A stretch of 39,661 nucleotides of DNA, taken from positions 1-39,661 of the forward strand of contig JAPONU010000285.1 of assembly GCA_026713745.1 (NCBI GenBank). Reading direction: 5' to 3'. The stretch is from a bacterium. GTDB lineage: Bacteria > Actinomycetota > Acidimicrobiia > Acidimicrobiales > CATQHL01. The notes beneath the pieces are model-generated. The model saw only the letters and a program-made list of their open reading frames with translations. It was not told the DNA's origin and made no database searches. Made by a program: the position numbers and the translations under genes. This document shows positions 17,167 through 35,377 of the stretch, one piece after another (within the stretch, counting starts at the first letter, position 1; each line of letters begins with the position of its first letter).

Positions 17167-19169
17167 GCTTCATGGGCGGCTCGTATGTGGCCGGCCCGCA
17201 GGGCCCGTCCTCGTCGCAGGCCAACGCCGCTGCCGGGCTGCCGTTCGCCGGCATCCCCGACGAGATGATCGACCGGGCGGCGGACATCCTGGACGCCGAA
17301 CCCACCCACCCCGAGCCCGACGTGGACTTCGCCCACCGGGCCCCCGATGCGCCGCCGCTGTCGCTGCGGACAATGCTCGGCCCCCATTGGCGGCGCGTAC
17401 TGCTGGTGGTGGTTCTCGTGATCGTCGAGGCCGCCGCCACCCAGGCGGGACCCCTGCTGACCCAGATCGGCATCGACGACGGGGTGGCGGCGCGCCGCTT
17501 CGGCGTGCTCGGCATCGTGGTGGCCGTCTACTTCGCCACCGTGGTGGTACACGTGGTGGCCGGCCGCGCCCGCACCGCCCTCGGGGGGCGCCTCGGCGAG
17601 CGTCTCATGTACGTCCTGCGGGTGCGGGTGTTCACCCACTTCCAGCGGATGTCGCTGAACTTCTACACCTCCGAGAAGGCGGGGGTGCTGATGTCCCGCA
17701 TGACCAGCGACGTCGAGGCCCTCACGATGTTGCTGCAGGAAGGGCTCGTGATGATGGTCGTGCAGGGGTTGACCCTGGCGGTCATCACCGGCGTGCTGTT
17801 CTACCTGCACGTTCCGCTGGCGGCTCTCACCGTGGGCGTCGTGGTGCCGGTCACCTTGCTGCTTTCGCTGTGGTTCCGCCGCTCCTCGGAGCGGGGCTAC
17901 AACCGGGTCCGCGACCGCATCGCCGCCGTGCTGGCCGACCTGGCGGAGAGCCTCGCCGGTATCCGGACCATCACCGCCTACAACCGCCGGCACCGCAACA
18001 TCGCCCAGCACCAGGGCGTCGTGAGCGACCACGAGGAGGCCAACGTCTACACCACGCGGGTCTCCTCGCTGTACGCCGCGGCCGCCGAGGGTGTCGGCAT
18101 CGTCGGTCAGGCGGTTGTTCTGGGGGTGGGCGGCTGGCTGGTGATCGACGGCCGCCTCACCCTCGGCGTCCTCACCGCATTCGCCCTCTACCTGACGGCG
18201 TTCTTCGCCCCCATCGGCCAGCTCGTCATGCTCTACAACGCCTACCAGCAAGGGCAGTCCGCCACCGCCAAGCTCCGGGAGCTGCTCGAGCGGCAACCCG
18301 ACGTGGCCGAGGCGCCCGACGCCGTGCCGCTGGGCCCCATCGAGGGCCGGATCACCTTCGAGGCCGTGTCGTTCTCCTATGACGCCGGCGAGCCGGTGCT
18401 GCGGGACGTGAACCTCGACGTCCCCGCGGGCGGCAGCCTCTCGGTCGTCGGCGCAACCGGCGCAGGCAAGTCCACGATCGCCAAGCTGGCGGTGCGCTTC
18501 TACGACCCCGACGAGGGCACGGTGCGGATCGACGGTACCGACCTGCGCAGCGTGCAGCTGGACTCGCTGCGCCGCCAGTTCGGCGTCGTGCCCCAGGAGC
18601 CGTTCCTGTTCAACGGCACCATCGGGGACAACATCCGATTCGCCCGCCCCGACGCCGGTGACGACGAGGTGGCCGAGGCCTGCCGGGTCGTGGGCCTCGG
18701 GGACTTCGTGGCGTCGCTCCCCGACGGCCTGGACACGCCCTGCCACGAGCGCGGCGCCTCGCTCTCGGCCGGGGAGCGCCAACTGCTGGCCCTCGCCCGG
18801 GCCTTCCTGGCCCGACCGCGCGTGCTGATCCTGGACGAGGCCACTTCCAACCTGGATCTGCGCTCGGAGGCTCAGGTGGAGCGGGCGCTGGACGCCGTGC
18901 TGGAGGGGCGGACCGCCGTGATCGTGGCACACCGTCTGGCCACCGCAATGCGCGCCGACCGGATCGCCGTGGTGGACAATGGACGGATCGCAGAGATCGG
19001 CAGTCACGACGAACTGGTGGCCGCCGGCGGTCTGTACGCCGGCATGTACGCCGCCTGGGAGGCCCACGCCGCAGGCAACGGCGCGCCACCGGCACCTGTC
19101 CCCGTAGGCGACGGCGCGGCCCCGGCAACTTCTCCCGCAGGCGTCGACCCTCAGGGTGTGGACCGATGA
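17163..19169 (+). CDS. ABC exporter half-transporter with catalytic ATP site (subunit B of the heterodimer)
   Basis: The 668-residue product has a roughly 70-residue soluble N-terminal extension, a six-helix exporter domain (from about LGPHWRRVLLVVVLVIV) and an ATPase domain with Walker A GATGAGKST (from residue 430), Q-loop VVPQEPFLF, signature LSAGE (534-538), Walker B LILDEATSNLD with catalytic Glu559, and an H-loop in IVAHRLATAM. The Walker motifs are intact but the signature is altered, exactly complementary to subunit A. The pair therefore forms one consensus and one degenerate site, as in known heterodimeric exporters of the TM287/288 and TmrAB type. The GTG start overlaps the previous stop (GTGA), and the stop overlaps the next ATG (ATGA). 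A Pro/Ala-rich C-terminal tail follows the ATPase domain. Confidence 0.92.
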   Translation: MSFMGGSYVAGPQGPSSSQANAAAGLPFAGIPDEMIDRAADILDAEPTHPEPDVDFAHRAPDAPPLSLRTMLGPHWRRVLLVVVLVIVEAAATQAGPLLTQIGIDDGVAARRFGVLGIVVAVYFATVVVHVVAGRARTALGGRLGERLMYVLRVRVFTHFQRMSLNFYTSEKAGVLMSRMTSDVEALTMLLQEGLVMMVVQGLTLAVITGVLFYLHVPLAALTVGVVVPVTLLLSLWFRRSSERGYNRVRDRIAAVLADLAESLAGIRTITAYNRRHRNIAQHQGVVSDHEEANVYTTRVSSLYAAAAEGVGIVGQAVVLGVGGWLVIDGRLTLGVLTAFALYLTAFFAPIGQLVMLYNAYQQGQSATAKLRELLERQPDVAEAPDAVPLGPIEGRITFEAVSFSYDAGEPVLRDVNLDVPAGGSLSVVGATGAGKSTIAKLAVRFYDPDEGTVRIDGTDLRSVQLDSLRRQFGVVPQEPFLFNGTIGDNIRFARPDAGDDEVAEACRVVGLGDFVASLPDGLDTPCHERGASLSAGERQLLALARAFLARPRVLILDEATSNLDLRSEAQVERALDAVLEGRTAVIVAHRLATAMRADRIAVVDNGRIAEIGSHDELVAAGGLYAGMYAAWEAHAAGNGAPPAPVPVGDGAAPATSPAGVDPQGVDR

Positions 19170-19963
19170 GCCCAGGGCCTTCCCCGGCGCTGCGACTCAG
19201 CGATGTCGGGGTTGTTCGCGACCGGCGGCCGTTGCTCGTCGGCGTGGACTGGACGGTGGAGCAGGGCGAGCGCTGGGTGGTCCTCGGCCCGAACGGGGCC
19301 GGCAAGTCCACGTTGCTGCGAGTGGCGGCCCTCTACCTGCATCCCACGCTGGGAACCGTGGAGGTCCTGGGACGGCGCCTGGGCCGTGTCGACGTGCGCC
19401 GCATGCGTCATCGCGTGGGCTACGCCTCGGCCATGCTCTCCGACCGCATCCGCCCGACGATCAGCGCCCTGGACGCGGTCATGACCGCCCGCCACGGCGC
19501 CCTGGAGCCGTGGTGGCACAGCTACGACGATGCCGACCGGCAGCGTGCCGCCGACCTGCTGGAACGGATGGGCTGCAGCCACCTCGCCGGCCAGCAGTTC
19601 GGCCTGCTCTCCTCGGGTGAGCGGCAGCGGGTGCAGATCGCCCGCACCCTCATGACCCAGCCCGGCTTGGTGCTGCTGGACGAGCCCACCGCCGCCCTGG
19701 ACCTGGCCGGGCGGGAGGAATTGGTGCGTACGCTGGACGCCCTCAGCGCCGACCCCGCCACGCCACCCACTGTGCTCGTGACCCACCACGTCGAGGAGAT
19801 CCCGGCGGGCTTCGACCATGCGCTGCTGCTCCGCGAGGGCCAAGTGGTCGGAGCAGGCCCCATCGGCGAGGTGCTAACGGCTGAGCGCCTCAGCCACTGC
19901 TTCGGCATCGAGCTGGAACTCGAGCACAACCGGGGCCGCTGGTGGGCCCACGCCGCCGACTAA
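19166..19963 (+). CDS. Stand-alone ABC ATP-binding protein coupled to the exporter pair
   Basis: The 265-residue product is a single ATPase domain: Walker A GPNGAGKST, Q-loop region VGYASAMLSDRI, signature LSSGERQRVQIARTLM, Walker B LVLLDEPTAALDLAG, and an H-loop in VTHHVEEIP. The layout resembles YlmA/ModF-like single-domain ATPases and not exporter ATPases. It has no membrane domain, and no separate permease gene is near. Its ATG overlaps the TGA of the exporter subunit (ATGA), so its dosage is tied to that operon. Whether it works with an unlinked permease, with the exporter, or as a soluble ATPase cannot be decided. The gene ends convergent to kynA, leaving 61 bp between the stops, in which no clear terminator hairpin is seen. 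Confidence 0.88.
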   Translation: MSPGPSPALRLSDVGVVRDRRPLLVGVDWTVEQGERWVVLGPNGAGKSTLLRVAALYLHPTLGTVEVLGRRLGRVDVRRMRHRVGYASAMLSDRIRPTISALDAVMTARHGALEPWWHSYDDADRQRAADLLERMGCSHLAGQQFGLLSSGERQRVQIARTLMTQPGLVLLDEPTAALDLAGREELVRTLDALSADPATPPTVLVTHHVEEIPAGFDHALLLREGQVVGAGPIGEVLTAERLSHCFGIELELEHNRGRWWAHAAD

Positions 19964-20024
19964 CCCCAGGCGATGAGGCACGTGGGGATCGCATGTTCGT
20001 GGAGCCCCCGTCCACTTTGGACGC

Positions 20025-20841: not shown

Positions 20842-22239
20842 TCACACCGACAGGGCGTCGGACCGAGCCAGCGGGTCGGGTTGGGGCAGGGGCGCAAGCT
20901 CGGCGACGAGTTCGGCCGCCCGACCCAAGTCGATATCGGCGAGCGATGCCCGGCCCGCCGTGAGTTCGTCGAGGATCTCAGCCTGGCGGGCGGCGCGCGC
21001 CGCGGCCTCGGCGTAAGGCATCGTCGAGAACATCACCATGTTGTAGCGCGGGCTGAGACGGTCGGGATACCGGCGCTGGAGTTCCAGCGCCAACTCACGG
21101 CGGATCACGTAGCGGGGGTCCATCACGCCCGCTCGCATCTCCAGATAGTTGTCGAGCGCCATGTCGGCGATGGCGTCGGCGTTGGGTTTCCGCTCCGCCT
21201 CGAACGCGGCGAAAGCCTCGGCGGTGTCGTCGGGCCGATCGCGGAGATGGCGGTCGAGGGCGCGCGCCGACTCCATGGCCAGGTTCATCCCTTGCCCATG
21301 GAAGGGAACGATGGCGTGCGCCGCATCGCCGACGAGCACGGCCCTGTCGCCCAGCGACCAGCCAGTGCAGCGCATCGTGGCGAGCCGGCCAGCGGGGTTC
21401 GCGAAGAACTGCTCGACGAGGTCGGGGACCATGGCCACGAGGTCGGGAAACTCCCGCTTGAAGAACTCCGACACCGCTTCGGGGTCCGCCGACGAAGCGA
21501 AGCCTCCGTCTCCGGTGTTGGGCGCGAACAGGGTGGCGGTGAAGTCGCCTTCGGGGTTGGGCAGCGCGATCAGCATGAACTCCCCGCGCGGCCAGATGTG
21601 CAGCGCATGCGGATCGAGGCGGAACCCGTCGCCGCGGGCCGGTGGAATCTGCAACTCCTTGTACCCGTGGTCGAGCCAGTCGACCTCCGCCCTGCCCCCG
21701 TTGGCGGCCACGATCGCTCGGCGGAGGTCCGAGCCGGCCCCGTCGGCCCCGAAGACGGTGCCGAACCGCACGGTGCGCGCCTCGCCGTTCGGGCCGGCGA
21801 CGGTGATCGTGCCCGCCGCGAGATCGACCCCCCGGACGGGGCTCTCGAAGGAGATCTCAACCCGGCCGGTGGCTTCGGCGGCGTCGAGCAGGACGGCATT
21901 GAGACCGCGCCGGGACACCGAGTGGATGACCTCACCGGCGCGTGTGCCGTAGGGCTGCAGCACCGGCTCATCGCCGGCGTGGATCATCCGGCCCCGCATG
22001 GGAATCGTGATGGCGTCGACCCGCTCGATCACGCCGACGTCGACGAGTGGGACGATCCCGCGGGTGGCGAGGGCCAGGTTGATGGATCGGCCCGCGGGGA
22101 TCTCCGCCCGGCGGATGTCGGGTCGAGCCTCGTAGACGGTCACACGGTGTCGGCGCCGGGCTAGATAGATGGCCATCAGGGCCCCGGCCGGCCCGGCGCC
22201 GACCACGACGACCGGGCCGCGCTCGCCGAACGAGCTCAT
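20842..22239 (-). CDS. kmo: Kynurenine 3-monooxygenase
   Basis: This FAD/NADPH hydroxylase converts kynurenine to 3-hydroxykynurenine. The 465-residue product has the N-terminal Rossmann motif VVVVGAGPAGALMAIYLARR, the kynurenine-monooxygenase signature IPAGRSINLALATRG, a FGADGAGSDLRRA segment (DG motif) and GDAAHAIVPFHGQGMNLAMES (GD motif). Length is normal for bacterial enzymes. The ATG overlaps the last bases of kynU (ATGA), so translation is coupled to that gene, and tryptophan dioxygenase follows 13 nt after its stop. The order kynU-kmo-kynA on one transcript means the three core enzymes are made together. Most bacterial anthranilate-type kynurenine pathways lack kmo, so its presence marks the 3-hydroxy branch. 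Confidence 0.95.
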   Translation of the reverse strand: MSSFGERGPVVVVGAGPAGALMAIYLARRRHRVTVYEARPDIRRAEIPAGRSINLALATRGIVPLVDVGVIERVDAITIPMRGRMIHAGDEPVLQPYGTRAGEVIHSVSRRGLNAVLLDAAEATGRVEISFESPVRGVDLAAGTITVAGPNGEARTVRFGTVFGADGAGSDLRRAIVAANGGRAEVDWLDHGYKELQIPPARGDGFRLDPHALHIWPRGEFMLIALPNPEGDFTATLFAPNTGDGGFASSADPEAVSEFFKREFPDLVAMVPDLVEQFFANPAGRLATMRCTGWSLGDRAVLVGDAAHAIVPFHGQGMNLAMESARALDRHLRDRPDDTAEAFAAFEAERKPNADAIADMALDNYLEMRAGVMDPRYVIRRELALELQRRYPDRLSPRYNMVMFSTMPYAEAAARAARQAEILDELTAGRASLADIDLGRAAELVAELAPLPQPDPLARSDALSV

Positions 22240-23540
22240 CGGGCCGCGTCGTGGAGGGCGCTGTCCAGGATGTCGACGAAGCGACGGATGTCAGCGAAGG
22301 TGTTGTAGAGCGGCACCGGCGCCACGCGGATCACGTCGGGTGAGCGCCAGTCACAGGCCACACCGGCCTGCTGCAGTGCCTGATGAACGGCACGGCCGTC
22401 GAGGCCGGGTTCCCGGACCCGCAGCGAGTGCTGACAGCCGCGCTCGGCCGGCATGGTCGGGGTGATCGTTTCGATGCGGTCACCGATCACCTCGGCAAGT
22501 AGAAAGTCGAGGTACTGGATCTGCTGTTCCGACTTCGCCCGCAGCGGCACCATTCCCCCCGCCCGATCGAAGACGTCCAGCGACGCCCGCAGGGGCGCCA
22601 TGGCGAGGATGGGCGGGTTCGAGAGCTGCCAGGACTCGACGGTGGGAGCCGGATCGAAGACTGTGCCCATCTCGAAGCGGGTCTCGGCGCGGTGCCCCCA
22701 CCAGCCCAGGAGTTTGGGGAGTGAGCGATCGCCCGCGTAACGCTCGTGCACGAAGGCACCCCCGACACCACCGGGACCGCCATTGAGGTACTTGTAGCTG
22801 CACCAGATGGCGAAGTCCACGTCCCAGTCGTGCAACGCCAGCGGCACGTTTCCCACGGCGTGCGCCAGGTCGAAGCCGACCCGGGCTCCGACGCCGTGGG
22901 CCGCCGCGGTGATCTCGGTCATCGGCAGGACCTGGCCGGTGTAGTACTGCACGCCGGGCAGCAGCACGAGCGCCAGCTCGGCGCCGTGGGTGGCGATCAG
23001 GGCCAGGAGGTCGTCACGCCGCAGCGCCTCCTCGCCCGCCCTCGGCCGGGCGAGGACCAGCGACCCCGCGGGTTCGTGTCCCCGCTGGCGGATCTGGCTC
23101 TCGACGGCGAAATGGTCGCTGGGGAAGGCGCCGGCCTCGATGAGGACCTTGTGCCGGGCGGGGGTGGGATCGTAGAAGCTCACCATCAGCAGGTGCAGGT
23201 TGACGGTGAGGGAGTTCATGGCCACGACCTCGCTGGGGCGGCCGCCGACCAGTCGCCCCAGCGAACCGGTCAACAACTCGTGATACGGCACCCACGCCTC
23301 CTCGCCGGCGAAGTGCCCGGCCGCGCCCAGGCGAGCCCACCGTTCCAACTCGGCGTTCACGTAGCCGGCAGCCGCCCGGGGCACCGCTCCCAGCGAGTTG
23401 CCGGCCAGATAGATCTGCGGCGACCCGTCGGGGCCCTCCGGAAGGTGAAACTCGTGACGGAATGTCGCCAACGGATCAGCGGCGTCAAGGGCCGTCGCCG
23501 CCTCGGCGCCGACGCTGAAGGAGAGGTCCGTCCCGGTCAT
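22236..23540 (-). CDS. kynU: Kynureninase
   Basis: This PLP enzyme cleaves (3-hydroxy)kynurenine to (3-hydroxy)anthranilate and alanine. The 434-residue product has YLAGNSLGAVPRAA near the N-terminus, EVVAMNSLTVNLHLLMVSFY, FPSDHFAVESQIRQRG, a DLAHAVGNVPLALHDWDVDF segment and the PLP-lysine motif IWCSYKYLNGGPGGVGGAF, all characteristic of kynureninase. The start is ATG 23540 with no strong ribosome-binding site. The stop overlaps the kmo start. It follows the 3-hydroxyanthranilate dioxygenase gene after 91 bp that hold a 7-bp GC hairpin. Together with kmo and the dioxygenase it completes the route from tryptophan to the quinolinate precursor. Confidence 0.95.
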   Translation of the reverse strand: MTGTDLSFSVGAEAATALDAADPLATFRHEFHLPEGPDGSPQIYLAGNSLGAVPRAAAGYVNAELERWARLGAAGHFAGEEAWVPYHELLTGSLGRLVGGRPSEVVAMNSLTVNLHLLMVSFYDPTPARHKVLIEAGAFPSDHFAVESQIRQRGHEPAGSLVLARPRAGEEALRRDDLLALIATHGAELALVLLPGVQYYTGQVLPMTEITAAAHGVGARVGFDLAHAVGNVPLALHDWDVDFAIWCSYKYLNGGPGGVGGAFVHERYAGDRSLPKLLGWWGHRAETRFEMGTVFDPAPTVESWQLSNPPILAMAPLRASLDVFDRAGGMVPLRAKSEQQIQYLDFLLAEVIGDRIETITPTMPAERGCQHSLRVREPGLDGRAVHQALQQAGVACDWRSPDVIRVAPVPLYNTFADIRRFVDILDSALHDAAR

Positions 23541-23563
23541 GGCCCCGGGAGCCGGGGATCGCA

Positions 23564-23588
23564 GGCCCCCGGTTGGCCGCAGGGGGCC
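23564..23588. other. GC-rich hairpin between the hydroxyanthranilate dioxygenase and kynureninase genes
   Basis: GGCCCCC (23564-23570) and GGGGGCC (23582-23588) form a perfect 7-bp stem with an 11-nt loop. No T-tract follows on either strand, so it is not a typical terminator. It may stabilise or process the polycistronic mRNA, or may be chance in GC-rich DNA. Confidence 0.3.
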
Positions 23589-23631
23589 CGTCGCCGGCGG
23601 GACATCACAGGTTTCCCGGCCGTCCCGGGCC

Positions 23632-24192
<561 letters not shown>

Positions 24193-24220: not shown

Positions 24221-24898
24221 TCACAGCCGCAGTCCGCACTGTTCGAAGGCCTCCCGCGTGGCGGCTTTCTCCCCCTCGGTCAACTCCAGCAGCGGCGGGC
24301 GGACCCGGCCTCCCACCTGGCCAACCAACTCCTGCCAGTACTTCTGGTGGGCATGGGGTTTCTCCGGGGGTCTGGTGTCGCGCAGCGCTCGGCGCACCGG
24401 GTCCAGGCTCTCGCTGATGCGGCGCGCCCCGGCGGCGTCGCCGGCCAGCGCCGCCTGCGTGTAGTCGTGCATGCGCCGGTCGGTGGCAGTCTGCAACAGG
24501 AAGGGCGGCGACGAGCACAGGTACAGCTTCCATCCCAATTCGAGGATGTTGTCGAGCCACTCGCCCTCCGAGGCGGTGCTCACCGCGATGCGATCGGAGG
24601 CCAACCCGGTGAGTTCGGCATACATCGGGCGGGGCACGCTGTACTTGATGGCCACCACGTTGTCCAGGTCGGCCAGCCGGTCACAGAGCCCCGGCGACAT
24701 GAGGTACCCGCTGTCGGGGTGGCTCCACAGCGCAATCGCGATGTCGACAGTCTCCGAGATCGTCTTGTAGTACCGAAAGACGGTCTCATCCACCTCCGAG
24801 ACGAAGTGCAACCTCGGGGCGTGCACGACGATGTAGTCCGCCCCGACTTCCTGAGCGTGCCGGGCGTAGGCCTTGGCGTCACCTCTGGCGTATTCCAT
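24221..24898 (-). pseudogene. 5'-truncated dihydrodipicolinate synthase/N-acetylneuraminate lyase family gene
   Basis: The 225-residue frame matches the middle and C-terminal part of DapA-family aldolases. It begins at the helix before strand 4 (YARHAQEVGADYIVVHAPRL), keeps the Schiff-base lysine in DNVVAIKYSVPRP, and ends with the usual helical tail. Family members are about 290-310 residues; roughly 75 N-terminal residues, including the GTTGE-type phosphate/pyruvate motif, are absent. Upstream in frame (to 24945) there is no start codon and no DapA-like sequence, because the aldehyde dehydrogenase gene ends there. The ATG has no ribosome-binding site. The usual YNxP tyrosine segment is LWSHPDSG. 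The barrel cannot be complete, so this is probably a relic of a pyruvate-dependent lyase, though a divergent short protein is possible. Confidence 0.68.
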
Positions 24899-24918: not shown

Positions 24919-26355
24919 CTACACGATCGAGATGCTGTGGGAGACATTCTTGACGACCATGTAGTTGTGCAGGCCCTCCAGCCCGCCCTCCCGGCCGTAG
25001 CCGCTGGACTTCACGCCGCCGAACGGCGTCTCGGGAACCGAGGCCTCGAGCGTGTTGATCGACAGGTTCCCGGCCTCAACCCGTTCGACCATCTGCTCCA
25101 CATAGTCCGCACGGTTGGTGAACCCGTAGGCCGCCAGCCCGTAGGGCACCGAGTTGGCGCACTCGATGGCCTCATCCAGCGAACCCACCCTGTTGACGGC
25201 GGCGAGGGGCCCGAACGGTTCCTCCTGCATCACCCGGGCGTCGCCGGGCACCTCCGCCAGCACCGTCGGCTGGAAGAAGTAGCCGGAGGTTCCGACCCTG
25301 TCCCCGCCTGTGGTGACGGTCGCCCCCTTGGCGCGCGCGTCGGCCACGAAGCCGGCCAGCGCCGCCAGACGGCGGTCGTTGGCCAGCGGACCCATCTCGG
25401 TGCCGGGCTCCATGCCGTCGCCGACCACCACCGCGGCGGCGCGCTCGGTGAAGACGTCCAGGAATTCGTCGAAGATGCTGTCGTGGACGAAGAACCGCGT
25501 CGGCGACGTGCAGACCTGCCCGGCATTGCGCATCTTGCGCACCGCTGAACTGGCCGCGGCGGCGCGCACGTCGGTGTCCTCGCAGACGATCACCGGTGCG
25601 TGACCTCCGAGTTCCATCAGCACCGGGGTCATGTTGTCGGCGGCCAGCCCCGTGAGCCGCCGGCCCACCGCCGTGGATCCGGTGAAGGCAACCAGCCGGA
25701 TCGCCTCGTGGGGGATCAGGTACTCGGAGATCTCCGACGGTACGCCGAAGACCGCGTTCAGCACACCCGGCGGCAGGCCCGCATCTGCGAAGGCCCGGGC
25801 GATGTGCATGGCGCCCGCCGGCGTCTCCTCCGATGGCTTGAGAATGATGGAGCAGCCCGCCGCCAGGGCACCCGCCACCTTGCGGGCCGGCTGGCTCATC
25901 GGGAAGTTCCAGGGCGAGAAGGCGGCCACTGGCCCGATGGGCTGCTGGTGGACCACATAGTTGATGCCCGGCCCGCTCGGGATCACGCGGCCGTAGGCAC
26001 GGACCACCTCACCGGCGTCCCACTCGAGGAACTCGCAGCCCCGGATGACCTCCATGCGGGCCTGCCGGTAGGGCTTGCCGTGCTCGAGGGTGATGTCGCG
26101 GGCGATCTCGTCTTGGCGCTCGCGCATCAGGGCCGCCGCTTTGCGCAGGACGTCGGCCCGGTCCCTGGGGGCGGTCCGGCTCCAGACACCGAACCCCTTC
26201 GAGGCCGCCTCCAGGGCATCGTCAAGGTCCTGCGGGGCGGCGCAGGCAACCCTGCCGATGACCTGCTCGTTCGCCGGGTTGACCACCGGCAGGTCATCCG
26301 CCGTCGTACGCCACGAACCGCCGATGAAGAGCCCGGTATCGGGATAGTTGGTCAT
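24919..26355 (-). CDS. NAD(P)-dependent aldehyde dehydrogenase (succinate-/ketoglutarate-semialdehyde dehydrogenase-like)
   Basis: The 478-residue product has a full ALDH layout: oxyanion Asn in AAFSPWNFPMSQPARKVAGA, NAD-binding lysine in ILKPSEETPAGA, AFTGSTAVGRRLTGLAADN, catalytic Glu in LMELGGHAPVIV, catalytic Cys in NAGQVCTSPTRFFVHDSIF, and EEPFGPLAAVNRV. The start ATG 26355 has GAGG 8 nt upstream; the track start at 26484 runs through the MarR remnant. Position at the head of the kynurenine cluster allows a role on 2-aminomuconate semialdehyde, whereas a DapA-like partner would suit a ketoglutarate semialdehyde; the sequence alone resembles the latter group. The ALDH identity is certain, the substrate is not. 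It ends with TAG 20 bp before the DapA-like fragment. Confidence 0.92.
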   Translation of the reverse strand: MTNYPDTGLFIGGSWRTTADDLPVVNPANEQVIGRVACAAPQDLDDALEAASKGFGVWSRTAPRDRADVLRKAAALMRERQDEIARDITLEHGKPYRQARMEVIRGCEFLEWDAGEVVRAYGRVIPSGPGINYVVHQQPIGPVAAFSPWNFPMSQPARKVAGALAAGCSIILKPSEETPAGAMHIARAFADAGLPPGVLNAVFGVPSEISEYLIPHEAIRLVAFTGSTAVGRRLTGLAADNMTPVLMELGGHAPVIVCEDTDVRAAAASSAVRKMRNAGQVCTSPTRFFVHDSIFDEFLDVFTERAAAVVVGDGMEPGTEMGPLANDRRLAALAGFVADARAKGATVTTGGDRVGTSGYFFQPTVLAEVPGDARVMQEEPFGPLAAVNRVGSLDEAIECANSVPYGLAAYGFTNRADYVEQMVERVEAGNLSINTLEASVPETPFGGVKSSGYGREGGLEGLHNYMVVKNVSHSISIV

Positions 26356-26365
26356 CGCGCAATCC

Positions 26366-26512
26366 TCAATTCCGTACCGTAATGGTCGCCAGTTCAATGC
26401 TGCAGGACAGCAACTGGTACGAGCGGTGCAGCAGGAACGGCAGGTAGCTCCGGAGGAACCCGTCATCGGTCTCCCGCCCGTCAACGCCGAGGCCTGTGTT
26501 CTCTTCGCTCAT
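26366..26512 (-). pseudogene. N-terminal remnant of a MarR-family transcriptional regulator
   Basis: The 48-residue frame starts MSEENTGLGVDG and contains LRSYLPFLLHRSYQLLS, which looks like helix 1 of MarR regulators (typically F-L-x-x-Y-L-P-Y-L-L-x-R-A). The likeness stops after about residue 37, and the frame ends within 11 residues (ATITVRN). The winged-helix DNA-binding part is missing, and the ALDH ribosome-binding site begins at once. It therefore looks like a 5' gene fragment left by a deletion fused to the ALDH leader. A genuine small protein is the alternative. It may still be transcribed as the leader of the kynurenine operon. Confidence 0.5.
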
Positions 26513-26542
26513 ACCAGTCTGAGTACCACAGATCGGCGGGCA

Positions 26543-26563
26543 ATAGATCGACCGGCGATCTAT
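26543..26563. promoter_or_regulatory. Perfect 8+8 palindrome, candidate operator upstream of the MarR remnant
   Basis: ATAGATCG (26543-26550) and CGATCTAT (26556-26563) are perfect inverted repeats separated by 5 nt. The site lies 31 bp upstream of the MarR-remnant ATG, where an autoregulatory MarR operator would be expected. It is AT-richer than its surroundings and has no T-tract. Confidence 0.5.
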
Positions 26564-26573
26564 CGACCGATGA

Positions 26574-26714
26574 TCAACCGCCGTAGGCGGAGAACACCCG
26601 CTCGAACCACGACTGCGCCTGCTCGACGTGGTCGATGGAGATCGGCACGTGGCGCGTCTGGAAGATGGAGTTCGCCTCGTCGCCCGTGATGGCGGCCTGG
26701 CTGACACGGACCAC
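26574..26714 (-). pseudogene. C-terminal coding remnant of an unrecognised protein
   Basis: A frame absent from the ORF track reads VVRVSQAAITGDEANSIFQT then RHVPISIDHVEQAQSWFERV and ends FSAYGG. It has G or C in nearly every third position, so it looks truly coding. In frame upstream, similarity to coding sequence fades around 26740 and a TGA closes the frame near 26817. There is no start with a ribosome-binding site. I do not recognise the family. It ends beside the palindrome, so a gene once lay upstream of the MarR gene and lost its 5' part. Confidence 0.45.
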
Positions 26715-26949
26715 GGCGAAAGGCGAGTTGGGCCGCGATCGGCCGTCGGGTGGGTCGGCACCCGACGACGGTGGCCCGGGAGGTGCGAAGCGGAGGCGAC
26801 CGGTGCGTGAGCGGCGTCATCGATCCCGTCGTCGGCGTCTTCGCACAGGCTCGGCGGGCCGCCGTGGCGCCGGCCCAGGCACCCATGCCGTCGCCGCCGG
26901 GGGCCGCCGAGTCCCCCGAAGGCGCCCGCCGCCGCGTCGAGCGCCCTGG
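26715..26949. other. Intergenic scar without a recognisable gene
   Basis: About 235 bp between the coding remnant and the LivM-LivG stop. The frames called by the track here are Arg/Pro/Ala-rich shadows. I see no gene, hairpin with T-tract, or terminal repeat of a mobile element. Confidence 0.5.
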
Positions 26950-28827
26950 TCAGCCTCCCAGGTAGGCGGCATGGACCGCCGGGTGGGTGCGGATCTCCGC
27001 CGGTGACCCCACCGCGATCACCGAGCCCTGATCGAGGCAGTAGACCTGATCGCAGAGGTTGGTGATGAACGCCAGATCGTGGTCGATCACCACTATCCCG
27101 CACCCCAGTACGTCAGCGATGCGGCGGATCTGATCCACGATGATGACCGACTCCATCTCGGAGAATCCGGAGGTCGGCTCGTCGAGGAGCAGGAAGCGAG
27201 GCGCTTGCGCCGCGGCCCGGGCCAGTTCGAGACGCTTGGCGGCGCCGTAGTCGAGGGCGCGCGCCCGTACGTCGGCGATGTCGGCGAGGCCGCACAACCG
27301 CAGCAGACCGGTTGCCCTCGCTTCGGCTCGCCGAGCCGAGCGGGCGCCGGCGAGTGCGGCCACTTCGACGTTCTCCCGCACGCTCAGCGCTGCGAAGAGC
27401 CGCAGATTCTGGAACGTCCGGGCAAGGCCGAGCCTGGCCAGCCGGTGGGGCGCCAAGCCGGCGATGTCCTCACCGTCGAGACTGAACCGACCCCCGGCTG
27501 CGGTGACGACGCCGGTCACGGTGTTGAGCATCGTCGTCTTGCCGGCGCCATTCGGTCCGATGACCCCTACCACTCGTCCGCTCTCCGCCAGGAGATGCGC
27601 GACCTCGAGGACACGCAGGCCGCCGAAGTCCACCGTGACGCCCGCCGCGGCCAGGCGGACCGGAGCCGTGGTCGCCTGCGGACGTTCTGGGAATTCAAGT
27701 CGCTGAGCTGCTTCCCCCGGTATCGCGCCGCGCGCGCCGCGACGCCGCCGAACGAGCCGGCGGCCGAGCCAGTCGGCGAGTTCCCAGTCGTCCAGCAGAC
27801 CCCGCGGGCGCAGGATCATGAAGCCGAGCATCGACGCGCCGAGCACCAGGTCCACCAGGCCCGGACGCAGGATCAAGTCGAATGGACCGGGATCAACGTT
27901 CGGACCCGACAACACCCGGGCCACCTCGGTCAGCACGGTGATCAGCACTGTGCCGAGGATGGCTCCGGTGATGCTGCCGCGGCCGCCGACGACCAGCATC
28001 GTGATGGTCAACAGGGTGTAGTCGATGAAGAACCGCTCGGGCGAGATCGTGCCGGTGAGCCAGACCCGCAGCGACGACCCGACGGCGACCACGGCGACCG
28101 ACAGCAGCAGGGCGACCATCTGGTGCGGGGCCGGGTGGATACCCAGGGAGCGTGCCGCCACATCGTCCTCCCGGGCTGCTCTGGCCAGACGCGCCGTCCG
28201 CGAACGGCGGTAGAGGCCAGCCACGGCGAGCGCCAGGGCGAACGCTCCGTAGGCGTAGCCCCGTCCCGTCATGGCTGTGCCAGGTTGGAAGCTCAGACCC
28301 GCCCTGTTGCCACCGGTGAGGTCGGTCCAGTTGATGGCGATCTCGAAGGTGGCGAACAGTAGCGACAGCGTGATGACGGTGGGGGCGATCGCTCCCGAGG
28401 CTGCGCCCGCCCGTACCAGGCCGAGCCCGACGACGGTGGCCACGACGCCACTCACCGCCACGGCCACCCCGATCGCCACGGCCGGATGCACGGTCACGTC
28501 GACGAGTCCGAACGGTGCGTCGGGCACCAGGAGGGACTTGCGCCCGCCGTCGATGGCGAACAGCACGAAGGCGTACCCGGCGACCGCGCCGAAGCCGACG
28601 TGGCCGAACGACAGGATCCCGGTATTGCCAATGAAGATCTGCATCCCGACGACGACGGTGGCGTTGATGAGCAGCGCCGTGAACAGCCGCTCCCCGGCCG
28701 CGTCGCCCCCCGAGACATACGCCAGCCCCAGCCCGGTGACCGCGGCGAACAGTAGGCCGGCAGCGCCGATCTCGGGAACGAACCGGCCGATCAGCCGGTC
28801 CGAGTCCCTGCGGCCCGTGTCCCTCAC
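26950..28827 (-). CDS. Fused LivM permease - LivG ATPase of a branched-chain-amino-acid-type (HAAT) ABC importer
   Basis: The 625-residue product joins two subunits normally encoded apart. Residues about 1-345 form a LivM-type permease (GMQIFIGNTGILSFGHVGFG near the start of the family core; LLTITMLVVGGRGSITGAIL near its end). After a linker rich in Arg/Ala, residues about 385-625 form a LivG-type ATPase: FGGLRVLE, Walker A GPNGAGKTT, GLARTFQNLRLF (Q-loop), signature LDYGAAKRLELARA, Walker B FLLLDEPTSGFS, and an H-loop in VVIDHDLAFI. The signature departs from LSYGQQR but is within the usual LivG variation. The start overlaps the LivH stop by 4 bp. It is the last gene of the hydrolase-SBP-LivF-LivH-LivMG operon. 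Substrate unknown; this family also takes up amides, urea and aromatic acids. Confidence 0.9.
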   Translation of the reverse strand: MRDTGRRDSDRLIGRFVPEIGAAGLLFAAVTGLGLAYVSGGDAAGERLFTALLINATVVVGMQIFIGNTGILSFGHVGFGAVAGYAFVLFAIDGGRKSLLVPDAPFGLVDVTVHPAVAIGVAVAVSGVVATVVGLGLVRAGAASGAIAPTVITLSLLFATFEIAINWTDLTGGNRAGLSFQPGTAMTGRGYAYGAFALALAVAGLYRRSRTARLARAAREDDVAARSLGIHPAPHQMVALLLSVAVVAVGSSLRVWLTGTISPERFFIDYTLLTITMLVVGGRGSITGAILGTVLITVLTEVARVLSGPNVDPGPFDLILRPGLVDLVLGASMLGFMILRPRGLLDDWELADWLGRRLVRRRRGARGAIPGEAAQRLEFPERPQATTAPVRLAAAGVTVDFGGLRVLEVAHLLAESGRVVGVIGPNGAGKTTMLNTVTGVVTAAGGRFSLDGEDIAGLAPHRLARLGLARTFQNLRLFAALSVRENVEVAALAGARSARRAEARATGLLRLCGLADIADVRARALDYGAAKRLELARAAAQAPRFLLLDEPTSGFSEMESVIIVDQIRRIADVLGCGIVVIDHDLAFITNLCDQVYCLDQGSVIAVGSPAEIRTHPAVHAAYLGG

Positions 28828-29711
28828 ACCCGCTCCCTGGCGCGGGTGCGCAGGATCCCCGCAGGCCGGAAGACGAACAGCAACGCGATCAGGACGAAGG
28901 TGATCCCGTTGACCATCCCGTCGAGTTCGTCGGGAAGCCGCGAGACGAGTTGTACCTCCACGATCCCAAGCAGGATGCCGCCCAGCACGGCGCCCTGGAG
29001 CCGCCCGAGGCCCCCGATCAGGGCCGCCAGGACACCCTTCAGCATCGGGAGGAGGCCCGCGTCCGGCGCCGCCCTCCCGGTCCTCATCAGGAACAGAACC
29101 GCCGCCACCCCGGCGAGCAGTCCGGCCAGGGCGAACGCCGACCGGATCACGAGGTTGCTTCGAACGCCGAGCAGTCGGGCCGTGTCGAAGTTCTCCGCGG
29201 CGGCCCGGATCGCCAGCCCGTAGATCGTCTTGCGCAGGATCGCCAGCGTGACCAGCAGCGTCACCACCGCTACCACGATCACGGCGATGTCGACCACCTC
29301 CACGCGCACACCGCCCACTGAGGTGGTCCTGTTGATCCAGTCCGGTCTCTCGAATCCCCGCGAGCTGGCCGACACGTACATGACGAAGCCTGCCTGCACC
29401 ACGAAGTGCACACCGAAGGACATGAGCAGCATGGCGAAGTCACTGGCGCCGCGGACCCAGCGGAATGCAACCATCTCGAGCGCCACCGACGTGGCGATCG
29501 AGGTCGCCATGATGACCGGGACGAGAACCCACCAGTCCATGCCGACGAGCGTCAGCCCGTACGCCACGTAGGCGCTGACGGTGATGAGCTCGCCGTGGGC
29601 GAAATTGACCATTCGCATGACCCCGAAGGTCAGGCCGATCCCCAGCGCCAGCAGCGCGTACTCGCTGCCGAGACCGAAACCGTCGATCAGCTGCTGGGCG
29701 AACTCGACCAT
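28824..29711 (-). CDS. LivH-type permease of HAAT ABC importer
   Basis: The 295-residue polytopic membrane protein starts with LIDGFGLGSEYALLALGIGL, and the family signature TFGVMRMVNFAHGELITVSA follows; near the C-terminus are LLPMLKGVLAALIGGLGRLQ and GAVLGGILLGIVE. Eight or so hydrophobic segments are visible, as usual for LivH. The ATG at 29711 overlaps the 3' end of livF by 25 bp, and its stop overlaps the fused LivM-LivG gene by 4 bp, so the permease subunits are translationally linked. There is no ribosome-binding site, in keeping with coupling. It forms the membrane channel with the LivM half of the fusion protein. Confidence 0.92.
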   Translation of the reverse strand: MVEFAQQLIDGFGLGSEYALLALGIGLTFGVMRMVNFAHGELITVSAYVAYGLTLVGMDWWVLVPVIMATSIATSVALEMVAFRWVRGASDFAMLLMSFGVHFVVQAGFVMYVSASSRGFERPDWINRTTSVGGVRVEVVDIAVIVVAVVTLLVTLAILRKTIYGLAIRAAAENFDTARLLGVRSNLVIRSAFALAGLLAGVAAVLFLMRTGRAAPDAGLLPMLKGVLAALIGGLGRLQGAVLGGILLGIVEVQLVSRLPDELDGMVNGITFVLIALLFVFRPAGILRTRARERV

Positions 29712-30451
29712 GACGTGCCGTTGCCCAGGAACGCCTCGAACAGGTCCTGGCGTGCCGCCAGGGACGCGGCCGGGCCGCTGGCGACGATGTCGCCGCTGCG
29801 GATGATGTAGGCGGTGTCCGCCATCTCCAGGAGGCGACGCGCATCCTGCTCGACGACGAACAGGGTGGTGCCCGCCCCGGCGAGCTCGCCGAGCAGGTCG
29901 AACACGTGGCTACGCAGGCTCGGCGCCAGACCGAGGGCCGGCTCGTCCATCAGCAGCAACGCCGGGCGGCTCATGAGCGCACGGGCGATGGCGAGCTGCT
30001 GCGCCTCACCGCCCGAGAGCAGGCCGGCGGGGGCCGACCGCCGGCGCCCGAGCGCCTCGAAGCGCTCCATCAACTCTGCCGCCAGCCGGCGGCGGCTTCG
30101 CGCACCGGTGGTGATGCCGGCGACGAGGAGGTTCTCCTCGGTCGTCAGCGAAGTCAGGATCCGGCGGTGCTCGGGGACCAGGGCGATGCCCGCACGCAGC
30201 AGCCGCTGCGGCGACCAGCCGGTGACGTCGCTGCCGCGCCAGCGGATCGTGCCGCCACCGGGCGGGTGCAGCCCGACGATGGCGTTGAGCAGGCTGCTCT
30301 TGCCGGCGCCGTTGGGCCCGATGAGAGCGACGAATTCACCGGCGCCGACGGTGATCGAGGCCCCGTGGACCGCCCGGACACCTCCGTAGGCGACCTCGAC
30401 CTGCTCGAGGGTCAGCAAGGTGTCCGGGCGGCCCGGGGTTTGTCGGTGCAC
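29687..30451 (-). CDS. LivF-type ATPase of HAAT ABC importer
   Basis: The 254-residue ATP-binding subunit has VEVAYGGVRAVHGASI, Walker A GPNGAGKSS, the LivF-typical Q-loop region LVPEHRRILTSLTTEENL, signature LSGGEAQQLAIARAL, Walker B LLLMDEPALGLAPSL and an H-loop replaced by Gln in VVEQDARRLLEMAD, as is usual in LivF. It would pair with the LivG half of the fusion protein on the cytoplasmic face of the importer. The GTG start follows directly on the TGA of the binding-protein gene, and its end overlaps livH. The four genes therefore form one tightly packed minus-strand unit. Confidence 0.92.
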   Translation of the reverse strand: MHRQTPGRPDTLLTLEQVEVAYGGVRAVHGASITVGAGEFVALIGPNGAGKSSLLNAIVGLHPPGGGTIRWRGSDVTGWSPQRLLRAGIALVPEHRRILTSLTTEENLLVAGITTGARSRRRLAAELMERFEALGRRRSAPAGLLSGGEAQQLAIARALMSRPALLLMDEPALGLAPSLRSHVFDLLGELAGAGTTLFVVEQDARRLLEMADTAYIIRSGDIVASGPAASLAARQDLFEAFLGNGTSWSSSPSS

Positions 30452-31810
30452 TCAGCCGTACACGGCGGCGAGGGTCGCCTCGCCGTTCACGACCTCGTGC
30501 ACGTAGACGGGCGTGTTCGGCGTCGCTCCCCCGTCGTAGATCAGCGTGCCGGTCAGGCCTTCGACCCCCGTCCCGGCGATGATGGCCTCACCGACGGTGA
30601 CCGGGTCGAGCGAACCGGTGCGGATTACGGCGTCGGCGATGACCAGGATGGCGTCGGCGGCGAGTGCCGAGTACGACTCGCTCTCGGGGGCGACGCCCTT
30701 GACGGCCTGATAGCCGGCGAGGAAGCGGAGCATCCGGCCGTCGGGCTCAGGGAAGGTGTGCGACGTGTGGAAGAACCCCTCGACGCCGTCGACGAAATAG
30801 CCGCCGGTCGCGGTGAAGGCGTCCGCGATGAGCATCTCGGCGTCTACGCCGGCCTCGCCGAGTTGCGCTCCCAGGATCGCCGCCTGGAAGGCGAGCAGCG
30901 CCGAGTAGACGACATCGGGCTGCGGGTCGAGCGCGGCGATCTCATTGACCTGCGCCGAGAAGTCGGTGGTCTGCACAGGCACGAACGGGTAGTCACCCAG
31001 GACGTCGCCGCCGAGTTCTTCGAACTTCTCGGTGAAGACCTCGACGACGTAACCGAAGTACGGCCCCGGAACGCTGAACGTGGCGGCCGTGGTCCAGCCC
31101 CGGCTGATCGCGAACTCGGCTGCCGCCTCCGCCTGCGCGGTGTCGGTGAACGAAGCCAGCAGTGACAGGATCGACGGGTCCGCCAGCAGCGGCTCGGTGG
31201 ACGAGACCGAAATCGTCGGGACCACTCCAGCGGTGATCTGCAGGATCGCCTGGTTGACGTCGAAGAAGGCCGGGCCCAGGATTGCCGTGACGTCCTCGTC
31301 AAGCAGTTCCTGTGCCACACGGCCAGCCGTCTCGGGGTCGCCCTCGATATCGCGGATCACCATCTCGACCGGATGGCCGTCCACGCCGCCCCAGCAGTTG
31401 ACGAGCTCGACGAAGTACTCCGCCGCCGCCGCCGCCGGGATGTCCACGAATCCACCGAGTTCGGAGAAGTCGGCGGCGTAGCCGATCCGCAGGGGTTCGC
31501 CCTGCGGTGCCGCGGCGCAGTCCGCCAGGTCGGCGGCGAGGATCGCGTCGACATCCAGATCCATCGACGCCGCCGGGGCCTCGGACGGCTCCTCGGGCGG
31601 AGCCGGCGCGGGTTCAGGAGGCGGGGCCGGGGCCGGTTCGGCCGGGGGCGGCGCGGGTTCAGGAGGCGGGGCCGGGGCCGGTTCGGCCGGGGGCGGGGGC
31701 GCCGCGGGGGTGCCGGTCGTCTCGCCGTCGTCGCCTGCGCACGCCGCGGCCAGCAGCGCCACCGTCAGCACGACGACGAGCGCCTGGATGATGGTCTTCG
31801 GTGTTCTCAT
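30452..31810 (-). CDS. Substrate-binding lipoprotein of HAAT (LivJ/K-type) ABC importer
   Basis: The 452-residue product has a lipoprotein signal peptide (ALLAAACAGDD, lipobox Cys24), a linker of about 55 residues made of Pro, Ala and Glu, and a type I periplasmic-binding fold (LRIGYAADFSELGGFVDIPA at its start; AILGPAFFDVNQAILQI; TISVSSTEPLLADPS). The lipid anchor holds it outside the cell, and it delivers ligand to LivH/LivM. The start ATG 31810 is supported by AGGGGGA 5 nt upstream. It is encoded 29 bp after an alpha/beta-hydrolase gene and directly before livF. The linker contains a perfect 45-bp tandem repeat. The ligand cannot be read from the sequence; the group includes receptors for amides, amino acids and aromatic acids. 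Confidence 0.9.
   Translation of the reverse strand: MRTPKTIIQALVVVLTVALLAAACAGDDGETTGTPAAPPPPAEPAPAPPPEPAPPPAEPAPAPPPEPAPAPPEEPSEAPAASMDLDVDAILAADLADCAAAPQGEPLRIGYAADFSELGGFVDIPAAAAAEYFVELVNCWGGVDGHPVEMVIRDIEGDPETAGRVAQELLDEDVTAILGPAFFDVNQAILQITAGVVPTISVSSTEPLLADPSILSLLASFTDTAQAEAAAEFAISRGWTTAATFSVPGPYFGYVVEVFTEKFEELGGDVLGDYPFVPVQTTDFSAQVNEIAALDPQPDVVYSALLAFQAAILGAQLGEAGVDAEMLIADAFTATGGYFVDGVEGFFHTSHTFPEPDGRMLRFLAGYQAVKGVAPESESYSALAADAILVIADAVIRTGSLDPVTVGEAIIAGTGVEGLTGTLIYDGGATPNTPVYVHEVVNGEATLAAVYG
31606..31695. repeat. Two copies of a 45-bp tandem repeat in the lipoprotein linker
   Basis: Units 31606-31650 and 31651-31695 are identical and encode a 15-residue Pro/Ala/Glu unit (AEPAPAPPPEPAPPP). 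Unit length is a multiple of three, so copy changes only alter spacer length. A distinct but similar Pro/Ala/Glu linker occurs in the second binding protein. Confidence 0.75.
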
Positions 31811-31839
31811 GTCTTCCCCCTTGTGGGTGTCATGGGTAG

Positions 31840-32670
31840 TCAGGCGGAGAGAAAGTCGGCGACGAGCCGGTTGAACCGATCCGGGTTCTCGATGAACATG
31901 AAGTGGTTGCCCCCCTCGTCGGCCGCGATGGACTCAAAGGTGGCGCCGGGGGTCTGCTCGGCGGCCCAGCGCGTCGCCGAGTCCGGGACGAACGAGCCCT
32001 CGCCGGCGATGTAGAGAGCGGGCCGGTTGATGCGCGGCGGCACGTCGCGCCAGTCCGCCAGGATGTCCGAGAAGAACTCGCGGGCCGAGAGCGGCCCCGG
32101 CATGCGGGCATTCTCGGCCAGCAGCCAGGCCATGTCCTCGGTGGAGATGTTCGGCGTGACCATCCCCTCGAGCAGCCCCGGGACCACCTGGCCCGCGGCG
32201 CCACCGGTCAGGCCGTTGTAGATCCCGAAGAATGCCTCGGCGCTGAGGATCGACCCGTAGTCGGTGATGTCCTGCTCGCTGAAGGCAGGGTTGGCGATGG
32301 GATGGGTCATCATGTCCACGAACACGACCCTGTCCAGCCCGTCGCCCGCGAACAGGTCGAAGTACGACCACAGCACGCAGCACCCCATCGAATGGCCGAG
32401 CACGTGCGCGCGCGGCCCGGCCACCTCGCTGATCACCGTCCGGAGATCCATGGCGTAGCGGGAGACGCGGTAGCCGTGATCGGGTCGCTGCGACTCTCCG
32501 TGGCCACGCAGGTCGAAGGTGATGACCCGGAAGCGGTCGCTGAGGCCTTCGACCTGCCGCTCGAACAGCGCCGCCGTCTGGTTCCAGCCGTGCACCAGGA
32601 TGAGCGGCGCCCCGGTCCCCGCCACGTCGTAATGCAACGCCACGCCGTCGTTGGTGGTCACCGTCGCCAT
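31840..32670 (-). CDS. Alpha/beta-hydrolase fold esterase/amidase-like enzyme
   Basis: The 276-residue soluble product has the oxyanion-hole motif LILVHGWNQ, the strand FDLRGHGESQRPDHGYRVSR, nucleophile elbow GHSMGC with Ser94, an acid candidate in LYIAGEGSFVPDS and catalytic His256 in EGGNHFMFIENPDRFN. This is the haloperoxidase/lactonase-like branch of the superfamily; the substrate is unknown. The ATG at 32670 has GAGGAG 7 nt upstream; the track start at 32715 lacks one. It heads the Liv-type transporter operon (29 bp before the binding-protein gene), suggesting that it acts on the imported compound. The AraC-type gene lies divergently 217 bp away, and that gap holds its promoter. Confidence 0.88.
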   Translation of the reverse strand: MATVTTNDGVALHYDVAGTGAPLILVHGWNQTAALFERQVEGLSDRFRVITFDLRGHGESQRPDHGYRVSRYAMDLRTVISEVAGPRAHVLGHSMGCCVLWSYFDLFAGDGLDRVVFVDMMTHPIANPAFSEQDITDYGSILSAEAFFGIYNGLTGGAAGQVVPGLLEGMVTPNISTEDMAWLLAENARMPGPLSAREFFSDILADWRDVPPRINRPALYIAGEGSFVPDSATRWAAEQTPGATFESIAADEGGNHFMFIENPDRFNRLVADFLSA

Positions 32671-32851
32671 CGATCGTCTCCTCGTCTTCGCCGGACGTTC
32701 CGGAACCGACGGCACGCGCTACGAGTCGAACCCGCAGGACGCGCCGCGGCTCAAACGAGATCAGAACCCTCGGGACCCGGCAGGGCTATCCGCCCAGCGC
32801 CGGGGATTGTCCGGAAACGGAGGTTTCTTGTCCGTTTTGCGCAGCGGAGCC

Positions 32852-32881
32852 TGGACAAGGCCGCGGCGCGGGTCGTAGCGT
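32852..32881 (+). promoter_or_regulatory. Promoter of the AraC-type regulator, leaderless
   Basis: TGGACA (32852-32857), an 18-nt spacer, TAGCGT (32876-32881), then 6 nt to the ATG at 32888. The -35 box matches TTGACA at five of six positions. The ATG has no ribosome-binding site, fitting leaderless initiation. Confidence 0.6.
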
Positions 32882-32887
32882 CCGGGT

Positions 32888-33826
32888 ATGCGGGCCGCCG
32901 CGGTCTTTCAGCGGTACAGGAGCATCGACGACCAGGCAGAGCAACTGACCGGCTTCGATCAGTCCTACCAACAGCTGGATCGCGGCTCGTACCGCGGCGC
33001 GTTCCTGGCGTGCGACGACGAGGAGGTCGGCTTCTTCGTCGAACACACCAACCGGCGACTCGGCCAGCAGGGCGCAGGCCCGGACGGCATGATCAGCGCG
33101 GTCGTCCTGCTCAGCGCCCCGGGTCACTCACTGAACAACGGGTCCACGTTCAGCATGGACGACATCGTGCTGGTGGGATCCGGTGGTGCCTACGAGGCCG
33201 TTATCGACGCGGGGGTCGAGCCGGCGGTCTTCAGCGTCCCCCTGGGGGCGACGACCGCCCTACCACTGCGCCGCCTCTCCGACCAGCAGGCGGGCCGGGT
33301 GCGCCGCATCGCCGATCCAGAACTCAGCAGGAAGTTCCGAGCCGTGGCAGCCAACGCACTGCGATCCTGGGATGCGGCCTCCCAGAGCGTCTCGGTGCCG
33401 CGCTCGGTCGTGCACGCGCTGATGCTCGAGGTGCTCACGGCGCCAAGCGCGGCTGACGGGTCGTCACACGGCTCGATCCAGCTCTACCGGGCAGCACGCG
33501 ACGTCATGGTCGATGCTCTGACGGTGTCGCTGCCGGTTCCCGAGGTCGCCTCGCGGGTGGGGTCGTCCCGCCGTACCCTTGAGCAGGCCTTCGACACCTG
33601 CGTCTCGGTGAGCCCTGCCCGCTTCCACAAGCTGCTGAGGCTCAACAACGCCCGCCGGCTGCTCGAGAGCGGGCGACATTCCGTGAGCCGGAGCGCCACC
33701 AGCAGCGGCCTGCACCACCTCGGTCGGTTCTCGAGCGACTACCACGAGTTGTTCGGCGAGTTGCCCTCGGAGACCGCGCTACGCGCCAAGGTGCTCATCG
33801 CAGACCCGGCGCCGGCCGGCGTCTGA
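32888..33826 (+). CDS. AraC-family transcriptional regulator
   Basis: The 312-residue product has an N-terminal ligand/sensing part (DQSYQQLDRGSYRGAFLACD, resembling the AraC-binding-like cupin domain; FSVPLGATTALPL) and a C-terminal double helix-turn-helix. Its first recognition part is LPVPEVASRVGSSRRTLEQA, followed by FDTCVSVSPARFHKLLRLNN and ARRLL, with a second helix pair around GLHHLGRFSSDYHELFGELP. This matches the AraC/XylS C-terminal domain. It is divergent from the hydrolase/Liv importer operon and probably controls it. Its own promoter is a near-consensus leaderless element. It ends 54 bp before a patch of gene remnants. Confidence 0.88.
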   Translation: MRAAAVFQRYRSIDDQAEQLTGFDQSYQQLDRGSYRGAFLACDDEEVGFFVEHTNRRLGQQGAGPDGMISAVVLLSAPGHSLNNGSTFSMDDIVLVGSGGAYEAVIDAGVEPAVFSVPLGATTALPLRRLSDQQAGRVRRIADPELSRKFRAVAANALRSWDAASQSVSVPRSVVHALMLEVLTAPSAADGSSHGSIQLYRAARDVMVDALTVSLPVPEVASRVGSSRRTLEQAFDTCVSVSPARFHKLLRLNNARRLLESGRHSVSRSATSSGLHHLGRFSSDYHELFGELPSETALRAKVLIADPAPAGV

Positions 33827-33880
33827 GCAGCCGATTCCGATCCGGCGCCGCTCGGGCGCGTTCCGGGCCGCGCCTGCGTC

Positions 33881-34058
33881 TCAGGTTGCCGCGGCCCGGG
33901 GTGCGGGCTCGGGCGCGCTCCAGTCCTGCGGGATCGAGGAGAAATCGAAGAACGGCTCGACGTCACCGCCGGTCACCGCCTCGGCGATCTGCGCATAGAA
34001 CCCTTGCCCGGTCACCGCCTCGGCGATCTGCGCATAGAACCCTTGCCCGGTCTCGAAG
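33881..34058 (-). pseudogene. C-terminal remnant of an unrecognised protein with duplicated 13-residue unit
   Basis: The minus-strand frame reads TGQGFYAQIAEAV twice and then TGGDVEPFFDFSSIPQDWSA, ending PEPAPRAAAT. The last part has coding-like composition and looks like a natural protein end, but beyond about 34058 the frame is antisense to an Lrp-like fragment. It is the 3' end of a lost gene. The family is not recognised. The 127-residue track ORF is not taken as a gene. Confidence 0.45.
33971..34048. repeat. Perfect 39-bp tandem duplication
   Basis: Units 33971-34009 and 34010-34048 are identical, with a partial third copy (GGTC) after them. Thirty-nine bp keeps the minus-strand frame (13 residues). 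Its perfection suggests a recent slippage or repair event at the junction of two gene remnants. Confidence 0.85.
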
Positions 34059-34084
34059 GCGACGTGTTGGCAGGAGTGATCGCC

Positions 34085-34270
34085 ATGTCGCTCACCGGGC
34101 GCGGCGACCTTCTCGTGCGGGTCGTGGCACCGACCAACGACGACCTCCACGAGATCCTGCAGCAGATCGCCGCCATCGACGAAGTGCGCCGCACCGAGAC
34201 GCTGCTCGCCCTGCACACCTCCCTGACACGCAGCAGCGCCGACCTCGTCGCCGCGGGCACCCACCCCTGA
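34085..34270 (+). pseudogene. Lrp/AsnC ligand-binding (RAM) domain fragment
   Basis: From ATG 34085 the 61-residue frame reads MSLTGRGDLLVRVVAPTNDD, LHEILQQIAAIDEVRRTETL and LALHTSL. It matches the second half of the RAM/AsnC effector domain (G-x-Y-D-L-L-V-R-V ... V-R-R-T-E-T). AGGAG lies 8 nt upstream, so it could be translated. The helix-turn-helix and the first strand-helix of the RAM domain are missing, and sequence upstream of about 34045 belongs to another gene remnant. The simplest reading is a 3' relic of an Lrp-type regulator; a stand-alone RAM-like mini-protein is the alternative. Confidence 0.6.
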
Positions 34271-35253: not shown

Positions 35254-35340
35254 CTGGGCCTCCCGACCTGTGCCGGGAGGAACGTTCTCCCAGCGCAGAA
35301 GAGAGTGCACTCTGAGACAAGAGATTAGACGCTGTAAGGA

Positions 35341-35370: not shown

Positions 35371-35377
35371 GCTGAAC

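Follow-up and report, generated by a model that had tools for sequence, protein, structure and literature searches.

The question raised by this locus concerns a 600-nucleotide stretch between a LIV-type transporter cluster and an aldehyde dehydrogenase (ALDH) gene, which holds a 48-residue open reading frame (ORF) and a palindrome: are these the leftovers of a MarR regulator and its operator, still at work ahead of a kynurenine operon, or the trace of another event? In the window, meaning the whole analysed stretch of 39,661 nucleotides, this part reads as follows:

26366 to 26512, minus strand: chimeric ORF of 48 aa, MarR residues 1-35 (MSEENTGLGVDGRETDDGFLRSYLPFLLHRSYQLL) followed by a lipoprotein tail (SCSIELATITVRN)
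26366 to 26412, minus strand: last codons of a lipoprotein gene, whose stop codon overlaps a GAGG ribosome-binding-site-like sequence of ALDH
26406 to 26412, minus strand: probable deletion junction, at a 7-bp repeat TGCTGTC common to marR and the lipoprotein gene in relative L070 (8 bp, TGCTGTCC, in L076)
26406 to 26538, minus strand: homology to marR of relatives L070, L073, and L076 (5' end of the gene, with its leader)
26543 to 26563: perfect 8+8 palindrome ATAGATCG-ACCGG-CGATCTAT, with a 5-nt spacer, hairpin-forming, absent from three relatives with an intact marR

The ORF runs from an ATG at 26512 to a stop at 26366-26368 on the minus strand, and its likeness to MarR is confined to the first 35 residues or so, the last 13 being unrelated to MarR. 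A Pfam search with the 48-aa peptide gave no match, MarR and MarR_2 included, although intact MarR genes from same-genus genomes, when compared directly with it, showed 64-72% identity over 31-36 residues (E about 1e-7); the MarR_2 profile matches the MarR of an intact relative with 41.8 bits. In the family alignment the ORF keeps the N-terminus and helix 1, and the helix-turn-helix is gone. The first-pass annotation, which had seen a MarR remnant reduced to helix 1, was thus right about this part but incomplete, as the ORF also carries the C-terminus of the lipoprotein gene next to ALDH. When used as a query in the related genomes G002 and G006, the ORF matched two places in each, a MarR gene about 3.9 kb upstream (residues 4-39 in G002, 9-39 in G006) and the lipoprotein (residues 34-48). 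This lipoprotein-like ORF upstream of ALDH has 131 aa in both genomes and ends in SCSIELATIQIRN, where the window ORF ends in SCSIELATITVRN. Among 60 genomes searched, the 48-aa form was found in its own genome only. A full MarR gene does exist in relatives, as the first-pass annotation had considered, but the short form is not kept there, which speaks against a conserved distinct small protein.

Intact syntenic loci occur in three relatives (G002/L070, G006/L076, and L073), in the order SBP, MarR, M20 peptidase, RbsC-like permease, ATPase, lipoprotein, and ALDH; L073 shares this order, with a further hydrolase gene behind MarR and an insertion of about 2 kb ahead of ALDH. The intact MarR has about 175 aa, and ALDH orthologues in same-genus genomes are 87-91% identical. 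About 3.8 kb separate MarR helix 1 from the last lipoprotein codons in these relatives; this DNA is missing from the window, where MarR residues 1-35 and the lipoprotein tail are joined in frame. As expected of a chimeric pseudogene, an intact parent gene for each half is present in relatives, in the same order, and a short direct repeat lies at the junction (L070, L076). The ORF is therefore, very probably, a deletion scar and not a small regulator. Comparison shows a deletion of about 3.8 kb that joined the MarR and lipoprotein frames. In the ancestor, SBP, MarR, M20 peptidase, permease, ATPase, lipoprotein, ALDH, DapA, and the kynurenine genes would have followed each other in one direction, and the deletion, between two copies of TGCTGTC, would have taken out all that lay between helix 1 of MarR and the final lipoprotein codons. 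The search for an intact MarR elsewhere, proposed at first pass, found no orthologue of MarR or of the permease in the own assembly (best 36% for each), and a relocated copy of the lost genes was rejected on this ground, with the reservation that the assembly has 635 contigs and is 88.7% complete, so that a gap might hide the missing genes. A LysR-like gene, recognized by eye, was noted between lipoprotein and ALDH in L073:8000-10000. A literature search for similar scars returned nothing directly relevant.

Around the scar lie further relics as well as intact genes:

20842 to 24183, minus strand: 3-hydroxyanthranilate dioxygenase, kynureninase, and flavin monooxygenase, full length
24221 to 24898, minus strand: DapA-family gene, with about 92 codons near the start missing (in-frame deletion of about 276 bp)
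24919 to 26352, minus strand: ALDH, intact, the first gene after the scar
26574 to 26720, minus strand: 3' tail (48 codons) of a lost sugar-type SBP gene, 83% aa identity to relatives
26750 to 26965, plus strand: 71-aa ORF, relics of a 4Fe-4S ferredoxin-domain gene, the N-terminal part joined in frame to the C-terminal tail

By context, the flavin monooxygenase would be a kynurenine 3-monooxygenase. Against the relatives compared, the DapA-family junction lies at about 24861-24866, at a GCCCG repeat, and no full copy of this gene was found elsewhere in the own assembly. The ferredoxin-domain relic lacks 1794 bp, a multiple of three, and its parent gene lies upstream of SBP in G002. Gene-order comparison shows that additional losses took away most of the SBP and ferredoxin-domain genes, and that the LIV cassette now abuts the scar. 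Positions 1-20000 of the window align with G007, G004, and G002 in the same order and show no large deletions; the losses are therefore local, and genome-wide erosion, of which none was seen in these 20 kb, was rejected. In L073, a tryptophan 2,3-dioxygenase-like gene (recognized by eye; L073:105-901) lies upstream of the SBP-MarR operon and ties the block to tryptophan breakdown.

It is conceivable, though doubtful, that the 48-aa ORF does more than record the deletion: it may be a translated leader, its stop codon coupled to the start of ALDH, and retention of the frame and the ribosome-binding site would then be why the deletion persisted. Such a role is compatible with a deletion scar and would be an addition to it. 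The in-frame fusion speaks for it, as does the lipoprotein stop that overlaps GAGG ahead of ALDH in relatives as well. The other two local deletions, in the DapA-family and ferredoxin-domain genes, are likewise in frame; three of three internal joins would be so by chance about 1 time in 27, a figure noted here without leaning on it, and retention of the ribosome-binding site alone would explain the deletion endpoint. The ribosome-binding sequence of ALDH, AATTGAGG, survives in the lipoprotein tail, and likewise beside the different upstream neighbour found in G007:C46, which also keeps CCGGAATTGAGG. In that contig, upstream of 57969, another junction precedes ALDH, with a LysR-like gene (by eye) and a lipoprotein tail seemingly kept only as CCGGAATTGAGG.

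On its other side, the deletion scar is bordered by a transporter cassette:

26950 to 34022: LivMG, LivH, LivF, LIV-type SBP, and alpha/beta hydrolase, all on the minus strand, with a divergent AraC gene on the plus strand; the LIV-type ABC cluster occupies 31810-26950, minus strand

The cassette is 80% identical in nucleotides over 7.25 kb to locus L188 of G414, a genome of another family; this homology breaks off precisely at the stop codon of LivMG. Few genomes of the class have the AraC (at 1e-20, 5 of 395, counting the own one), which has its best relative, at 82% aa identity, in the same G414; the module of AraC, sometimes a decarboxylase, hydrolase, and LIV genes also occurs in three further genomes of the order. 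Rarity and the pattern of nucleotide identity suggest that the cassette was probably acquired horizontally. Beyond it, positions 34308-39661 are collinear with G002:C97:42263-47598, and 34089-34253 correspond to the Lrp gene of G002; this is therefore the same genomic site as in G002. The order of the losses and of the arrival of the cassette is likewise inferred. At 33881-34264 (minus strand), an ORF with a tandem repeat (GQGFYAQIAEAVT twice) runs antisense to the Lrp-like fragment and looks like a decayed boundary. The AraC, hydrolase, and LIV module, sometimes with an aromatic amino-acid decarboxylase, was observed across families (L188-L191).

On this history the kynurenine operon is now without its MarR and its old transporter, which raises the matter of its transcription. 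MarR comes second in the relatives, 30-45 nt behind SBP. Ahead of SBP, L070, L073, and L076 share a conserved promoter-like element, ATAATATATGCAC(A/G)GTAAT, which in two of the three is preceded by TTGAC at a distance of about 17 nt; the window lacks this element. These findings speak against the first-pass proposal that the remnant brought its own promoter. A scan of 26340-27000, which GC-rich actinobacterial signals can escape, found no sigma-70-like promoter and no T-tailed terminator. Given this negative result, the kynurenine operon is most likely transcribed by polymerase reading on from the LIV operon, perhaps controlled by AraC; even so, the chances for and against such read-through appear about evenly balanced. 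The kynurenine genes are probably read either from the adjoining LIV operon or from a weak local start, and translation of ALDH would rely on the ribosome-binding site that the lipoprotein tail preserves. A weak leaderless-type start may lie in front of MarR: a conserved TAC-containing block stands 7 nt before the start codon of the 48-aa ORF and could represent a leaderless start; of what is left, this block speaks most for a local promoter. The 16 nt before this start codon, GTGGTACTCAGACTGG, are identical in L073 and the window, and could be a conserved start signal that still works.

The palindrome has to be judged separately. The first-pass annotation took it for the old MarR operator, retained after loss of the repressor, so that the promoter of the remnant would drive the ALDH and kynurenine genes constitutively. 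The 8+8 palindrome is indeed perfect, at 30 bp from the start codon. A search for its pattern, as had been suggested, gave a single site in the window with up to 3 mismatches, where 0.04 would be expected, and a single site in the own genome with up to 2. As a class, such repeats are not rare: the window has 34 perfect ones with arms of at least 8 and a spacer of up to 12, and ten Markov shuffles have 18-34, some sites being counted more than once in both. At about the same place L073 has a weaker 5+5 dyad, TGATC-GCC-GATCA, and this dyad, together with the perfect symmetry, the spacing, and the identity of GTGGTACTCAGACTGG with L073, is what favors an operator. Against it, the palindrome is missing from the 30-45 nt gap between SBP and MarR in L070, L073, and L076, which all have an intact MarR; MarR there follows SBP, with the promoter-like element ahead of the latter; no promoter-like site was found in 26340-27000; and related MarR genes are preceded by another site, described below. 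A retained operator with constitutive expression is thus highly improbable. With a z of -2.1, the palindrome can fold into a hairpin. It was rejected as an intrinsic terminator, since it has no T tract; as a repeat element, since it has no second copy in the own genome; and as an RNA family, the only match being a chance one to a miRNA far below cut-off. On comparative grounds the palindrome arose in this lineage, in what used to be the gap between SBP and MarR, and any role for it would be hypothetical.

MarR homologues of 36-45% identity head kynurenine operons in more distant Acidimicrobiales, and ATTCA-NN-TGAAT, with at most 1 mismatch, is found a few tens of bases ahead of MarR in 16 of 16 such loci (L082-L124), with no other copy within them. 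The scan covered the gene strand only, the site being self-reverse-complementary except for the two free bases. A shuffle of the 16 loci gave 4 sites, and none turned up in 252 kb of control DNA (13 sequences, the window among them); the window has no site even with up to 2 mismatches. The motif is strongly conserved ahead of the distant MarR genes and is often seen there as two copies 21-24 bp apart. It is a candidate operator of the distant kynurenine MarR family. The recognition helix reads TASRAC in the near-clade MarR and TVTHAV in the distant ones, and the near-clade site may therefore differ again. A limited literature search found no description of ATTCA-NN-TGAAT ahead of kynurenine MarR genes, and nothing directly relevant on MarR control of kynurenine operons.

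Least probable of all is a chimera of assembly or amplification in which the reads joined come from separate places in the cell's DNA. The assembly is indeed fragmented, and the junction lies at a short repeat of the kind (5-8 bp) that is also typical of amplification chimeras, but an assembler working with k-mers would not make a join on an overlap of only 7 bp, the own genome does not have the missing genes elsewhere, and 20 kb of the same contig are collinear with relatives, the changes clustering in one block.

The locus thus appears to be mostly a case of ordinary gene loss, erosion, and rewiring. A bolder reading, in which a recently acquired AraC-controlled LIV cassette took over the kynurenine operon, the native MarR and transporter being deleted and the in-frame joins letting translation run on into ALDH, with the chimeric micro-ORF serving as a coupling leader, is unlikely, somewhat more so than the leader role by itself. 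What had been a suggestive regulatory reading becomes a traceable deletion history, an example of how a catabolic operon can be stripped of its repressor and transporter and gain, as a neighbour, a different cassette of transporter and regulator. The motif ATTCA-NN-TGAAT ahead of MarR genes of Acidimicrobiales kynurenine operons is a by-product of the analysis that is directly testable.

Three comparisons with known systems place these findings. A regulator dedicated to kynurenine genes is known from 2011 work, in the passage of PMC4938989 that cites it; the Acidimicrobiales regulator shares this dedication but is of the MarR type, whereas the other belongs to a different protein family. Compared with the MarR regulators of Acidimicrobiales kynurenine loci (L070, L073, and L076 near; L082-L124 distant), the window ORF has the same N-terminus and helix 1 (FLxSYLPFLLHRSYQLLS) and likewise lies in a kynurenine locus, but it lacks the winged helix-turn-helix and the C-terminal helices, and its tail comes from the lipoprotein gene. 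Chimeric pseudogenes derived from deletions between short direct repeats show the same fusion of a head with a downstream tail, here at a 7-bp repeat with the genes between lost; the fusion in the window differs in that it keeps the frame and has a tail that includes the ribosome-binding site of the next gene.
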